In this document: positions 56,060-62,304 of the stretch, in pieces
Layout of the letters: each line of letters begins with the position of its first letter
How positions within the stretch are numbered: position 1 is the first letter of the stretch
Assembly (NCBI RefSeq): GCF_030063305.1
Contig: NZ_JASISV010000002.1
Coordinates: 186,001-250,000 of the forward strand
Length of the DNA: 64,000 nt
Direction of reading: 5' to 3'
Source: Salinibacterium sp. G-O1
Lineage (GTDB): Bacteria > Actinomycetota > Actinomycetes > Actinomycetales > Microbacteriaceae
Made by a program: the position numbers and the translations under genes
The notes under the pieces: model-generated
Seen by the model: the letters and a program-made list of their open reading frames with translations, nothing else
What the model was told of the DNA's origin: nothing
The model's database searches: none

Positions 56060-56779
56060 CTATGGTGCGGATTGGAACCAGGGCGGGTAGACGACAACTT
56101 TGGTCGATGTCATCTTCTTGACACGATCCCGCACCCGATCGTTCGATACGCCGATCAACTGCACAGACTCGAACGGGAATGGACCGACGGCGAGAGCCTC
56201 GGCCTCCTGAACGTCTTCACTGTCATGGAGCCGTTCGAGCATACGCGTGAGCGAATCGCCCGTAGCGAAGCGGGTCAGGCTGTGCGCGGCGTCGCCGTCG
56301 GCAATAACGGAGCCATCGCCCAGCGCCTCAACGGTGCTCACCAGGAACACAAAATCGGAGGACACAGCGGCGCGCGCTGCCGGAGACCACCGGGTCTCAT
56401 CGTCCGCGCCTTCGCGCAGCTGCTCCCAGAGCGTCGCGCTCGGAGTGAGATAAAACGGAATGTATTCAGACACCGTCGGTCCACCGGCGCTCACGTGTGC
56501 GGTGTTGCGCAGCTCCCGAGTCAGCTCGGTGCTCAGATCAACGGAAGGCGTGGCGTCCGCGAGGAGGGCTCCGGTGCTGAGGATGGCCTCAAGATTGTTG
56601 ATGTGTGTGACGTGATAGACGCGTTGCGCGCCGGTGTTGATGGATTTTCTGGATGTCGACACTGAAGCGACTCGAGGCGTTCGTGAGCTCGCGCGCACGA
56701 CTTTCGGTTTCTCTGGAACGGCCTTCGGGAAACAGCTGTCGCACAGCGGAATCTCGAGCCCGTGGATGCAATCTGGCAC
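56060..56779 (-). CDS. DarT-like (DUF4433) ADP-ribosyltransferase family protein
   Basis: 239 residues. From about residue 52 the DUF4433/DarT pattern is clear: QRVYHVTHINNLEAILSTGA (NAD-binding His and NL), VSEYIPFYLTPSATLW, and a late EAEALAVGPFPFE whose first or second Glu aligns with the catalytic Glu region of DarT. An N-terminal Cys/His cluster (C4, H6, C13, C16 in DCIHGLEIPLCDSC) looks like a small zinc motif. DarT toxins ADP-ribosylate thymidine in single-stranded DNA. No DarG macrodomain antitoxin is adjacent. GTG 56779 follows AGAGGA. Confidence 0.75.
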   Translation of the reverse strand: MPDCIHGLEIPLCDSCFPKAVPEKPKVVRASSRTPRVASVSTSRKSINTGAQRVYHVTHINNLEAILSTGALLADATPSVDLSTELTRELRNTAHVSAGGPTVSEYIPFYLTPSATLWEQLREGADDETRWSPAARAAVSSDFVFLVSTVEALGDGSVIADGDAAHSLTRFATGDSLTRMLERLHDSEDVQEAEALAVGPFPFESVQLIGVSNDRVRDRVKKMTSTKVVVYPPWFQSAP

Positions 56780-58106: not shown

Positions 58107-58754
58107 ATGGTCCAGCCTGATAACCCAGCCTTCGGCGCCACTTTGCGGGTCGCATTCGTGGTTGGAGTGACCCCGGGAAAGTGGTCGAAAGTCTGGGCCG
58201 AGCGGCTGCCGCGCACCTACCTTGAACTGCTCCCCTCCACCGCAGACGCCGCAGTGAAAGCGGTGGAGGACGGCGCCGCCGACGCCGCGCTGGTGCGCCT
58301 CCCCGTTGCAGGCGAGCACCTCTCGAGCATCCCTCTTTATGTCGAGCTCTCTGTCGTCGTCGCGCCCAAGGATCACGCGATTGAGGCGGTCGACTCCGTC
58401 AGCATGGCCGATCTCGCCGCAGAGACGATGCTGTCGAACGATGTCAGGGGTGACGACTGGGCGGCGGTCGTCGATCTGGTCGCCACTGGCGCCGGGGTCG
58501 CCGTCATGCCCCAGTCCGTCGCGCGAGCGCTGAGTCGCCGCGATGTGGTCGCCCGGCCCGTGACTGACGGGCCCGAGACTCGAATTGCTCTTGCCTGGCT
58601 GGCCGCCAACAACAACTTCCTTGTCGAGGAATTTATCGGGATCGTTCGGGGCCGCACCGCGAACAGTTCTCGTGGTGCGCAGCCGAAAGCGGAGAAGAAG
58701 CCGAAAGTGGCCAAACCGCGGACGCCAGATCGCAGACCGAGTCGCCGACGCTAG
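58107..58754 (+). CDS. LysR-type substrate-binding domain protein without HTH
   Basis: 215 residues from ATG 58107. It begins directly in a LysR-type type-2 periplasmic-binding domain (LRVAFVVGVTPGKWSKVWAE, later ELSVVVAPKDHAIEAVDSVS, TGAGVAVMPQSVARAL) with no DNA-binding helix-turn-helix, and ends in a Lys/Arg/Pro-rich tail (PKAEKKPKVAKPRTPDRR) that could bind nucleic acid. It is divergent from the DUF5997 gene. Such a pair could form a split regulator; this is inference. The stop overlaps the convergent kinase gene by 4 nt. Confidence 0.85.
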   Translation: MVQPDNPAFGATLRVAFVVGVTPGKWSKVWAERLPRTYLELLPSTADAAVKAVEDGAADAALVRLPVAGEHLSSIPLYVELSVVVAPKDHAIEAVDSVSMADLAAETMLSNDVRGDDWAAVVDLVATGAGVAVMPQSVARALSRRDVVARPVTDGPETRIALAWLAANNNFLVEEFIGIVRGRTANSSRGAQPKAEKKPKVAKPRTPDRRPSRRR

Positions 58755-60088
58755 TTGCTGGCGGCATCCACTCGAACCTCAAGCTCACGAATCACCATCG
58801 CGGCAAGGTCCACCAGGGTAGCCAGCCCTGCGGCATCGATGGTGTGGGGCTCTGTGTCGAGAACGCAGAGCGTACCGATCGCCACATCGTCAGCGGCGAG
58901 CAACGGAACTCCGGCATAAAACCTGAACTCCTCTGCGGCGGGGTGAGCGGGAGCGAGCAGAGGATGTGACGCTGCGCGTGGATCGTCCCTGGCATCCTCA
59001 ATCACCAACGGACCGAGCTCGAGCAGCTCACGCGCGTTGACGGCGGCATCGACCCCTATACGCGTCACATCCAGATCGTGCCGTGAGGTGAACCAGACGC
59101 GGTCGTGGCCAACGATGCTGATGATCGCCAGAGGAACCGCGGCAACTCTTGCCGCCATTGCGGTGATCCGGTCGAACGTCTCATCGGGGAGGGATTCCGG
59201 CAGCACAGGGCTGTCACGGATCTCCGGCATTTTGTGGCGTCCCGACTCGGAGAAGGACAATTGCCTGAGCGCGTGGGCCACGTCGTGGATGTCCGGGCGG
59301 TCCGACGCCTCCCGTGCCGTCATTGCCCGCAGCAACACTCGCCATTCATGAGGAACCTCCTCGGGAATGGCCGGATCGTCGAGTAGCCGCGCCATCGCCG
59401 AGTATTGGGCAGGGCCGGGGAAGGCAAGCTTCGCGGTGAGGCACTGCAGCAACACGAGCCCGAGCGCGTACACATCGCTCGCGGGCCCGACCTCCTCGCC
59501 CCGCGCCTGCTCGGGACTGAAGTACGCCACGGTGCCCGTGACGTGATCATCGTCAGAAATGGCCTCGGCGTTGCCGATCGATGCGATTCCGAAGTCTCCC
59601 AATTGCGCTTCGATCGTCGACCCGTCGTTGCTGAGGGCGGTGAGGATGTTGGCGGGCTTTACGTCGCGGTGCACAATCCCAAGCCCGTGCACATATTCGA
59701 GCGCACCCGCCACCCAATATCCGACCTGCGCCACCTGGCGAATTTTGAGCGGCCCCGAATCGAGCCTGCGTTTGAGGTCGGTGCCTTCCACGAGCTCCAT
59801 CACGTAGAAGACGCGGGCGTTGCCGGGATCAGTGTGGTCGACGCCCGCATCCAGAAGAGTGACAAGGTTCGGATGATTCAAACCCGCCAGCACGTTGACC
59901 TCGACCTCCTGGTTACGAAAGTCCGACTCGGTGGTCGCCGTTGCCCTGAACAGTTTTACCGCGACATCCCTGCCAAGAAATTCGTCGCGAGCCTTATAGA
60001 CGTCGGCGAACCCTCCATGGGCGATGAGCGACAGCGCGGTGTAGCGTCGCCGGAGCCGGGCCGGCCAGTCGGCAGGTTCGTTTGCCAT
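58751..60088 (-). CDS. Serine/threonine protein kinase with C-terminal GAF domain
   Basis: 445 residues from ATG 60088, with GGGAG upstream. Hanks-type kinase domain (about 15-275): ALSLIAHGGFADVYKARDEF (Gly loop), AVKLF (ATP Lys), GIVHRDVKPANIL (catalytic loop), LGDFGIASIG (DFG) and GTVAYFSPEQARGEE. A GAF domain follows (about 300-440; ISIVGHDRVWFTSRH, RFYAGVPLLAADDVAIGTLC). There is no transmembrane helix or PASTA domain, so it is a soluble kinase that may respond to a small ligand or redox signal. Confidence 0.93.
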   Translation of the reverse strand: MANEPADWPARLRRRYTALSLIAHGGFADVYKARDEFLGRDVAVKLFRATATTESDFRNQEVEVNVLAGLNHPNLVTLLDAGVDHTDPGNARVFYVMELVEGTDLKRRLDSGPLKIRQVAQVGYWVAGALEYVHGLGIVHRDVKPANILTALSNDGSTIEAQLGDFGIASIGNAEAISDDDHVTGTVAYFSPEQARGEEVGPASDVYALGLVLLQCLTAKLAFPGPAQYSAMARLLDDPAIPEEVPHEWRVLLRAMTAREASDRPDIHDVAHALRQLSFSESGRHKMPEIRDSPVLPESLPDETFDRITAMAARVAAVPLAIISIVGHDRVWFTSRHDLDVTRIGVDAAVNARELLELGPLVIEDARDDPRAASHPLLAPAHPAAEEFRFYAGVPLLAADDVAIGTLCVLDTEPHTIDAAGLATLVDLAAMVIRELEVRVDAASN

Positions 60089-60227
60089 TGTGGCTCCCCC
60101 GTTCGCTCGGGTTGATGGATGTCTGCTCACAGGATAGGGATCTGCCCGAATATCACGCAGGGGATTCCCTGCGTGGCGCGTTCACGATAAAGGGAGTGAT
60201 CCTTGCTCGCGTTACTATGAACGTGAG

Positions 60228-61646
60228 ATGTCATTCACGCGACGGAGCTTCCTGGTGGGCGCGGGGGCCAGTACCTCGCTGCTGGTACTCACCGCTTGTA
60301 CCGACACGTCGCCTGTGCCAACGGCCAAGCCCACTCCCCAACCCACGAATTCCGTTCCCGCGCCAACGAGCGTGCGGCGAAGCGACTGGTCAAATGACCC
60401 GTTCGCGCTCGGAGCCGTGAGCTTCCTTCCCGTGGGAGCCACTCCCCTGCACCGCGCAAATCTGGCCCAGAGCGTGATGGATCGCGTTTTCTTCGCTGGC
60501 GAGGCGACGGCGGATGACCCATCCACCGTCCGCGGCGCACGGGACACTGGGGCGCGAGCGGCTGCCGAGGTCCTGGAGGTTGTCGGCCCAGGCGAGCGTG
60601 TCGCTGTGATCGGCGCAGGTGCAGCCGGCGCCGAGTGCGCGAGGCGGCTGGCGGCATTGGGCGTCGACGTGGTGGTACTCGAGGCGCGTGATCGCACCGG
60701 GGGGCGCATTCACAGCATCAAGGGCAGTGATGGACAGTTCACCGAACTGGGCGCATGGCGGCTCGGCGTCGATAGTGACGCGGAGGTCATTGCGACGCTG
60801 GCGCGGCTTGACGTTGCCACGGCCCCTCACGCTGGACCCGATCTGATTCGAGAATCTGGCAGCGACGCAGAGGTCCTGACGCCAGCAGGCACGACACCGG
60901 CCAACACCGTCGGCGCCACCGCTGTGGCCAGGGCCACGGAATGGGCCGTCAGTCAGGTTGCCGATTCCACCCTTGCCGACGCGCTGGATGCGTCAGGGGC
61001 ACTGGGCGCCGCGGCTTCTGCCAGCCAGGGCGACCTGGGCGGCGAGGAGCTACTACAGCAGTATCTGCGCTCTCTTTCCGCGACGACAGGAGCCGAGGCA
61101 TCCACGCTCTCTGCCTGGTTCACTCCCCCGCAGCAGACGGAAGAGAACCTGCGGGTCACCGGATCATTCGTGTCGCTCATCGACAGCGACCTCAGTGGCG
61201 TTGAGACGTTCCTCTCCAACGTCGTCGTCGGGGTCTCGTACGACGAAAACGGGGTTCGGTTGCGACTCGGCACCGGAGAGTCGCTCAGCGTCGCCCGGCT
61301 GGTCGTCACGGCGCCTCTCGGCGTGCTGAAGTCGGCCGCCATCGAGTTTGCTCCCCTGCTGCCGTTCGGTCACCGCGCGGCCATCAATGCGATCTCGGTC
61401 GGCGCCATTGACCTCATCCACGTGAGATTCGACGAACCATTCTGGACGACGGATGCCGTCAACTGGAGTCTGGTGGGAACCGACGACCTCATCACCACCT
61501 GGGTGAACCTGATGCCGGGCACCGGCGAACCAGTGCTCATCGGTCTCGTCGGTGGCGATGCAGCGATCGCCCTTGCCGGGCTCACGGAGAAGGAGCTTGC
61601 CGAACTGGTGAGGACGAGCCTCGAGCCTTTCGCCGAACCCGTGTGA
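60228..61646 (+). CDS. Tat-exported lipoprotein amine oxidase with permuted domain order
   Basis: 472 residues. A Tat signal (TRRSFLVG, 4-11) ends in a lipobox LTAC (Cys24). After a Pro/Thr linker comes the segment that normally closes flavin amine oxidases: RSDWSNDPFALG (51-62), FLPVG, then VFFAGEAT (87-94) and VRGARDTGARAA. Only then follows the FAD Rossmann motif that normally opens them: VAVIGAGAAGAECARRLA (125-142) and VVLEARDRTGGRI. The chain ends at LVRTSLEPFAEPV, just where the moved segment would start. It should oxidise amines outside the membrane. The 3' end overlaps the convergent gene by 65 nt. Confidence 0.88.
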   Translation: MSFTRRSFLVGAGASTSLLVLTACTDTSPVPTAKPTPQPTNSVPAPTSVRRSDWSNDPFALGAVSFLPVGATPLHRANLAQSVMDRVFFAGEATADDPSTVRGARDTGARAAAEVLEVVGPGERVAVIGAGAAGAECARRLAALGVDVVVLEARDRTGGRIHSIKGSDGQFTELGAWRLGVDSDAEVIATLARLDVATAPHAGPDLIRESGSDAEVLTPAGTTPANTVGATAVARATEWAVSQVADSTLADALDASGALGAAASASQGDLGGEELLQQYLRSLSATTGAEASTLSAWFTPPQQTEENLRVTGSFVSLIDSDLSGVETFLSNVVVGVSYDENGVRLRLGTGESLSVARLVVTAPLGVLKSAAIEFAPLLPFGHRAAINAISVGAIDLIHVRFDEPFWTTDAVNWSLVGTDDLITTWVNLMPGTGEPVLIGLVGGDAAIALAGLTEKELAELVRTSLEPFAEPV

Positions 61647-62304
61647 GCCACACCATCCCGATGCCCACCACCGCAAACACCAGAAGCGCCAGCCCCGTCA
61701 TCGTGAAGAACTCTTCAGGCCCGGTGAGCTGCCCCGGATCGAGGAAGTAGTAGGGGTACCACCCCACAAGGGTGCCGCGCAGCATCGTCAGTCCGCCCCA
61801 TGTCACCGTGTAGCCAAGCACGAACACGACAACGCGCCAGGCCGCTCGCCCGCGTCCTGGCGACAGCAACCACTCGAGCACAGCAAGCGGTGGCAACCAG
61901 AAGTGCAGCACGAGGTCGGAGGGCGGAACATCGATCGGCACCGTGTCCGAGCCGGCCTGCTGCACGATGATGGCGAAGACGATCCCGGCGGTGACGGTGC
62001 AGGTGAGAATGCACGCCCGCAGGCCTGTGAGCCAGACGGGGTCGCGGTTCGCCCGCATCGCCACCGCGCCCGCGATCGCCATCACGATGACGAAAGCGAT
62101 ATTGCTCTGAATCGTGAGGTAGGCGTAATAGTTGTTCGGTGTGAATGTGGCCGAACCGAGCCCCCAGTTGTAACGCTCGACCAGGGCGATCGCGCAGACC
62201 ACAGCAAAGGCGATCCGGACGGCACCCACAAGCAAACGCGGGCGTAACGCCCTGAGCGGTGGGGGTAGAAGTTTGGCGAAATCCAGCACGCGGGTGGAGG
62301 TCAA
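61582..62304 (-). CDS. Pr6Pr family membrane protein
   Basis: 240 residues with six predicted helices. FTPNNYYAYLTIQSNIAFVI (about 54-73), HFWLPPLAVLEWLL and GWYPYYFLDPGQLTGPEEFF are typical of the Pr6Pr (FAR-17a/AIG1-like) family, whose function is not established in bacteria. Its C-terminal tail (last 21 codons) lies antisense within the amine oxidase gene. Confidence 0.88.
   Translation of the reverse strand: MTSTRVLDFAKLLPPPLRALRPRLLVGAVRIAFAVVCAIALVERYNWGLGSATFTPNNYYAYLTIQSNIAFVIVMAIAGAVAMRANRDPVWLTGLRACILTCTVTAGIVFAIIVQQAGSDTVPIDVPPSDLVLHFWLPPLAVLEWLLSPGRGRAAWRVVVFVLGYTVTWGGLTMLRGTLVGWYPYYFLDPGQLTGPEEFFTMTGLALLVFAVVGIGMVWLTRVRRKARGSSSPVRQAPSP

Follow-up and report, generated by a model that had tools for sequence, protein, structure and literature searches.

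Flavin amine oxidases and the LSD histone demethylases make up a heavily studied superfamily, in which LSD2 (KDM1B) is a chromatin enzyme with extra domains. Permutation is on record for other flavin binders: FMN-bind1 is presented, in the available part of PMC11334425, as a naturally permuted flavin-binding domain with covalent flavin, and the available part of PMC2395249 refers to a note of 1998 about a flavin-binding domain that is probably circularly permuted. A permuted amine oxidase is absent from the available parts of PMC11334425, PMC2395249, PMC1282579 and PMC2876114, and none was found in the wider literature as judged by titles and the starts of abstracts, most subscription papers lying outside this scope. 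The first-pass annotation of the locus described here knew of no described permuted member, a statement that holds within the literature looked at, which had few subscription papers. The permuted amine oxidase subfamily reported below is real and apparently undescribed.

Order of the two domain parts

The gene lies in a window of 64,000 nucleotides, the whole stretch of Salinibacterium sp. G-O1 DNA that was analysed (Table 1). In the encoded protein the block RSDWSNDPFALG...VFFAGEAT...VRGA..TGARAA at residues 51-113 stands ahead of GAGAAG at 129-134, and the chain ends in SLEPFAEPV, directly before the canonical site of the moved segment. The canonical order, with the Rossmann fold first and the FAD segment last, is not that of the window protein; as in a circular permutant, both pieces are swapped within one chain and the swap is conserved.

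Table 1. Features of the permuted oxidase locus, in window positions
Feature	Position	Strand	Details
Permuted flavin amine oxidase-like protein	60228..61646	+	472 aa plus stop, internal stops absent
Predicted Tat lipoprotein signal	60228..60299	+	RR at residues 5-6, lipobox LTAC, Cys24
Linker rich in Pro/Thr	60300..60377	+	Residues 25-50
Moved block	60378..60581	+	Residues 51-118; usual amine-oxidase C-terminal FAD segment; LSD2 chain 699-775
V64	60417..60419	+	Aromatic position within moved block
Rossmann fold and body	60582..61643	+	Residues 119-472; stops at canonical start point of moved block
GAGAAG dinucleotide-binding motif	60612..60629	+	Residues 129-134; usual N-terminus of fold
L396	61413..61415	+	Flavin-N5 lysine position
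Pr6Pr family membrane protein	61582..62304	-	NF038065, E 9.6e-29; convergent, 65 bp overlap with oxidase 3' end

Searched against the PDB with phmmer, the window protein aligned with LSD2 in two pieces, residues 123-464 with chain positions 337-690 and residues 42-115 with 699-773, the second piece at E 3e-5. A profile built from 18 permuted proteins placed its positions 76-417 on LSD2 chain 332-696 (E 5.7e-66) and its positions 1-75 on 701-775 (E 1.8e-17), covering the LSD2 circle except for 4 chain residues between both pieces. Among the best 60 of 96 PDB matches, with second stretches seen for one, the best stretch never crossed the junction (0/60). The Pfam profile PF01593 scores the window protein at 169.2 bits against a cut-off of 19.8, and its main stretch runs out at profile position 362 of 443, near the C-terminus of the protein; in three further permuted proteins it ends at 364-366, and in the canonical relative L145 a single stretch covers 1-443. 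Because the order is swapped, we assign the protein to a permuted subfamily of PF01593 and not to its ordinary members. In 76 of 80 distinct permuted sequences, 38-40 residues separate the GE motif of the block from GxGxxG.

Against LSD2, the window protein reads as one clean circular permutation. The order claimed by the first-pass annotation, with the FAD segment block before GAGAAG, is confirmed in an intact ORF and by the two-piece LSD2 mapping, and its observation that the protein stops where the moved block would normally begin agrees with the end point of the main PF01593 stretch. The pattern lies far above chance level and is repeated across many genomes. At the level of sequence, these comparisons establish that the protein belongs to the flavin amine oxidase superfamily and is a natural circular permutant whose order is conserved in Actinomycetota.

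Structure prediction with AlphaFold from 17 rows (five permuted proteins plus six canonical proteins each split into two pieces) gave a mean pLDDT of 66.3 and a pTM of 0.54, and with the five permuted sequences alone a pLDDT of 39.5. Taken by tens, pLDDT was 86-95 over model residues 61-110, which span the block end, the linker and the Rossmann part, and it was under 50 for 112 of 429 residues, including residues 10-20 of the moved block. In a Foldseek comparison of this moderate model, made along chain order and without match ranges, LSD2 chains ranked on top (E 1.6e-16, TM by query 0.52) and other amine oxidases came next. Because the AlphaFold model is moderate, we only infer that the moved block packs on the FAD. 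The former termini, both situated at the FAD-binding Rossmann fold, would have been joined through a short linker of near-constant length, and new termini would have opened in the loop ahead of the last FAD segment; with the old termini linked and the new ones placed in a loop, the fold and the FAD site would be kept. A permuted amine oxidase fold with bound FAD is, in our judgement, highly probable.

Distribution in Actinomycetota and number of origins

Our genome searches covered Actinomycetota and Bacteroidota, with a peptide-pattern contig scan that reaches close relatives only, and ORFs were sorted by scripts placing the block and the Rossmann part separately. The searches gave 79 distinct permuted proteins under 12 Actinomycetota family labels, 59 from Microbacteriaceae (label f1, identified by loci shared with named Microbacteriaceae) and 20 from the others, which together with 43 canonical proteins form the comparison set after removal of duplicates and one fragment. 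At E 1e-20 or better, 163 of 398 Microbacteriaceae genomes matched, and a hand count among the matches listed gave the permuted order in about 130 of the 163. Permuted homologues with 75%, 52% and 42% identity occur in Salinibacterium xinjiangense, Glaciihabitans tibetensis and Microbacterium sp. G2-8, respectively. Searches at the order, class and phylum levels recovered permuted proteins from other families within the class (f15, f16, f35, f37, f43, f48, f51 and f54) and from f72, f80 and f82 beyond the class in the same phylum. A junction profile detected the permuted form in 4 of 270 phylum genomes outside the class, each at no fewer than 153 bits, the best match without junction coverage in these genomes being a canonical protein at 92.6 bits. 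In 118 Bacteroidota genomes, 12 of which matched at E 1e-14, no match spanned the whole junction module, and the longest partial matches (1-89 and 49-135) came from genomes with both parts in canonical order. Seven plasmid records matched, none of which covers both parts. L036 and L037, suggested as permuted by their match ranges, proved canonical on the block/Rossmann classification and were rejected.

An odd order taken alone speaks for an artefact, either an assembly rearrangement or a piece of a broken gene pair. The first-pass annotation had instead proposed a natural permutation and denied a gene fragment beside a second copy, and homologues sharing the swapped order, the 79 distinct proteins under 12 family labels, support it on both counts, since recurrence of the order in so many proteins excludes a misassembly as well as a gene fragment. 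None of the ORFs having both parts holds a second block above 8 bits, L032 giving a single trace of 6.7 bits, and with a threshold of E 0.001 the genome has just one other match to the window protein, a weak one over residues 124-176 (E 2.6e-6). Conservation rules the artefact out, and we assign it a vanishingly small probability.

The permutation may have arisen once or up to three times. Repeated permutation at the same loop, with two or three origins, is favoured by the three order changes needed both in a quick tree of 109 rows and in a careful tree of 75 rows, by the bootstrap of the 75-row tree, where 0 of 200 trees unite all permuted proteins on one branch side, and by the starred branches of the first tree, which force two changes. 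It is countered by the AU tests, in which a single permuted clade is not rejected (p 0.265 and p 0.217), by the starred branches of the second tree, which force just one change, and by the f15/f16 rows, which sit on a long branch in both trees. We hold repeated origin to be a serious possibility, though one that falls somewhat short of an even balance. These f15/f16 proteins (L057-L060) are a distinct permuted clade without clear signal, with Trp at the aromatic position, and are a candidate for a second permutation event.

Predicted lipid anchor, catalytic positions and the adjoining Pr6Pr gene

The window protein follows the Tat lipoprotein pattern (twin arginine, hydrophobic stretch and lipobox Cys) as a sequence pattern only, and R5, R6 and C24 are invariant in a five-row alignment. 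With start sites picked by script, and in raw counts that ignore kinship among the proteins, twin arginine plus lipobox was found in 59/59 Microbacteriaceae permuted proteins and 7/20 other permuted proteins (L080, L084, L091 and L138-L141), 66/79 in all, against 8/48 canonical-order ORFs; L117, L120, L122 and L124, counted inside the f1 line of 63, are copies of L138-L141. An N-terminal twin arginine without lipobox is present in L077, L081-L083, L085, L086, L090 and L092, and a clear signal is absent from L057-L060 and L078. The first-pass annotation saw the permutation as placing the FAD-closing segment beside the lipid anchor; the association stands insofar as both features are frequent together, but the anchor is not supported as a general cause of the permutation, given 13/79 permuted proteins without lipobox and the eight canonical ORFs with one. 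The lipid anchor is common in permuted proteins, yet neither required for permutation nor exclusive to it. On IMG/VR contig 2508501111, a canonical-order amine oxidase (L145:2803-4206) has a Tat lipoprotein-like signal by eye. The Microbacteriaceae protein would be exported via Tat, probably with FAD already bound, and lipidated at the lipobox Cys.

The GxGxxG glycines G129, G131 and G134, together with the downstream E152 and with G159 and R160 of the GGR motif, are invariant in all 122 rows (59 + 20 + 43). In the phmmer PDB alignment L396 pairs with a lysine of LSD2 (chain index 615), which we take to be Lys661 of LSD1/LSD2, next to flavin N5; because of this pairing K368 was dropped as the catalytic lysine. 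Lysine occupies this position in 41/43 canonical, 18/20 other permuted and 14/59 Microbacteriaceae proteins, and arginine in 2/43, 2/20 and 3/59, respectively. Thus 42/59 Microbacteriaceae proteins have neither residue, and because 17/59 keep one of them, lysine loss is not defining for the branch. The V64 position, presumably that of LSD1 Tyr761 and MAO-B Tyr398, the aromatic of the flavin-side cage, holds Tyr, Phe or Trp in 43/43 canonical, 20/20 other permuted and 20/59 Microbacteriaceae proteins. The window protein therefore has neither the flavin-N5 lysine nor the cage aromatic of MAO, PAO and LSD enzymes, and loss of the two is almost limited to the Microbacteriaceae branch, whose tree neighbours, the lipoproteins L138 and L140, retain both. 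Near-invariant body residues among the 59 include F374 (59), P376 (59), W425 (58) and W406 (57). The Microbacteriaceae branch has thus retained its FAD motifs, with two catalytic-site positions relaxed.

A convergent Pr6Pr gene lies 3' of the oxidase in 59/59 distinct Microbacteriaceae permuted loci. The two ORF ends overlap in 44 of these loci and come within 150 bp in 56, or in 43 and 55 without L053 (-1781), which is a read-through frame. Neither the 20 other permuted loci nor the surroundings of 52 canonical-order ORFs (duplicates included) showed a Pr6Pr gene, although flanks were short in some cases. Since 128 of 150 Microbacteriaceae genomes carry Pr6Pr, its adjacency and not its presence is informative. 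No further neighbour gene is common to 13 Microbacteriaceae loci compared over 5-kb flanks (ORFs of at least 100 aa, BLAST E 1e-10), and the additional clusters common to them are alternative reading frames over the oxidase and Pr6Pr genes. Thr83, His153, Arg195 and Asp208 of Pr6Pr (aligned-piece numbering) are identical in 59/59, and the position called Thr192 in 58/59. A possible resemblance of Pr6Pr to AIG1-type membrane hydrolases received no support from Pfam, and no paper naming Pr6Pr was found in the literature looked at. The Pr6Pr protein, encoded tail-to-tail, is a likely partner of the permuted oxidase, although being neighbours is in itself no proof that the two act together.

Some other genes near the oxidase were recorded. 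A second Pr6Pr gene is located on the opposite side in L005, L006, L007 and L011. In the window, a Ser/Thr kinase carrying a GAF domain at its C-terminus (58751-60130, minus strand) is divergent from the oxidase, and its homologue also adjoins the oxidase in L032. A DarT-like ADP-ribosyltransferase is encoded at 56060-56779 on the minus strand (Pfam E 9.9e-17, PADLOC E 4.8e-22).

Possible chemistry and comparison with known systems

Because the lysine and the aromatic are mostly lost in Microbacteriaceae (L396 and V64 here), an altered chemistry such as that of a dehydrogenase is suggested, and we prefer it since the FAD motifs are kept and the tree neighbours L138 and L140 still have both residues. 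With less assurance than for the permuted fold, we think that the Microbacteriaceae branch, at the outer face of the membrane, probably serves as an FAD dehydrogenase or uses a different substrate, and is not a classical O2-dependent amine oxidase; a dehydrogenase step alone we propose tentatively, at clearly less than an even chance. A permuted but otherwise classical enzyme would carry out O2-dependent amine oxidation at the cell surface, the missing lysine and aromatic being tolerated or replaced by neighbours. Retained FAD motifs, the lysine and aromatic retained in 18/20 and 20/20 of the other permuted proteins, and LSD2, LSD1 and polyamine oxidases as the best solved relatives are consistent with such an enzyme, but L396 and V64 of the window protein and the 42/59 Microbacteriaceae proteins without Lys or Arg argue against it, and we consider it rather unlikely. 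The same loss of two residues kept by canonical relatives, in the presence of FAD motifs, would also fit a surface flavoprotein without redox catalysis, that is, a pseudoenzyme or an FAD-stabilised scaffold; the near-invariance of F374, P376, W425 and W406 in the 59 proteins speaks against this, though these residues are possibly structural, and we think it unlikely.

Combined with altered chemistry, the broadest picture would be a permuted FAD fold across Actinomycetota whose anchored Microbacteriaceae branch works without lysine-dependent oxidase chemistry and is paired with Pr6Pr in a two-part system for redox reactions or lipid processing at the surface, the permutation being possibly repeated at the same loop; as a whole, we regard this picture as speculative and improbable in all its parts together. 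The conserved permuted lineage means that the closing FAD segment can precede the Rossmann fold in nature, and it provides a naturally occurring case for testing folding order and FAD loading during Tat export as well as new termini for engineering. It also exposes an annotation gap, since order-blind profiles label permuted proteins plain amine oxidases and permuted members go under that name.

FMN-bind1, as far as the available part of PMC11334425 describes it, is a permuted flavin binder like the window protein, yet an unrelated domain with covalent flavin. L145 shares the Pfam family and a Tat/lipobox-like signal with the window protein, but has the canonical order. The FAD motifs are common to the window protein and the PF01593 flavin amine oxidases (MAO, polyamine, spermine and putrescine oxidases), and unlike their canonical members it has the FAD segment in front and is without the lysine and the aromatic. 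Among solved structures LSD2/KDM1B (PDB 4gu0, 4hsu) is the best match in sequence and fold, with both amine oxidase domain parts present as in the window protein; LSD2 has the canonical order and the flavin lysine, whereas the window protein is permuted and has L396.
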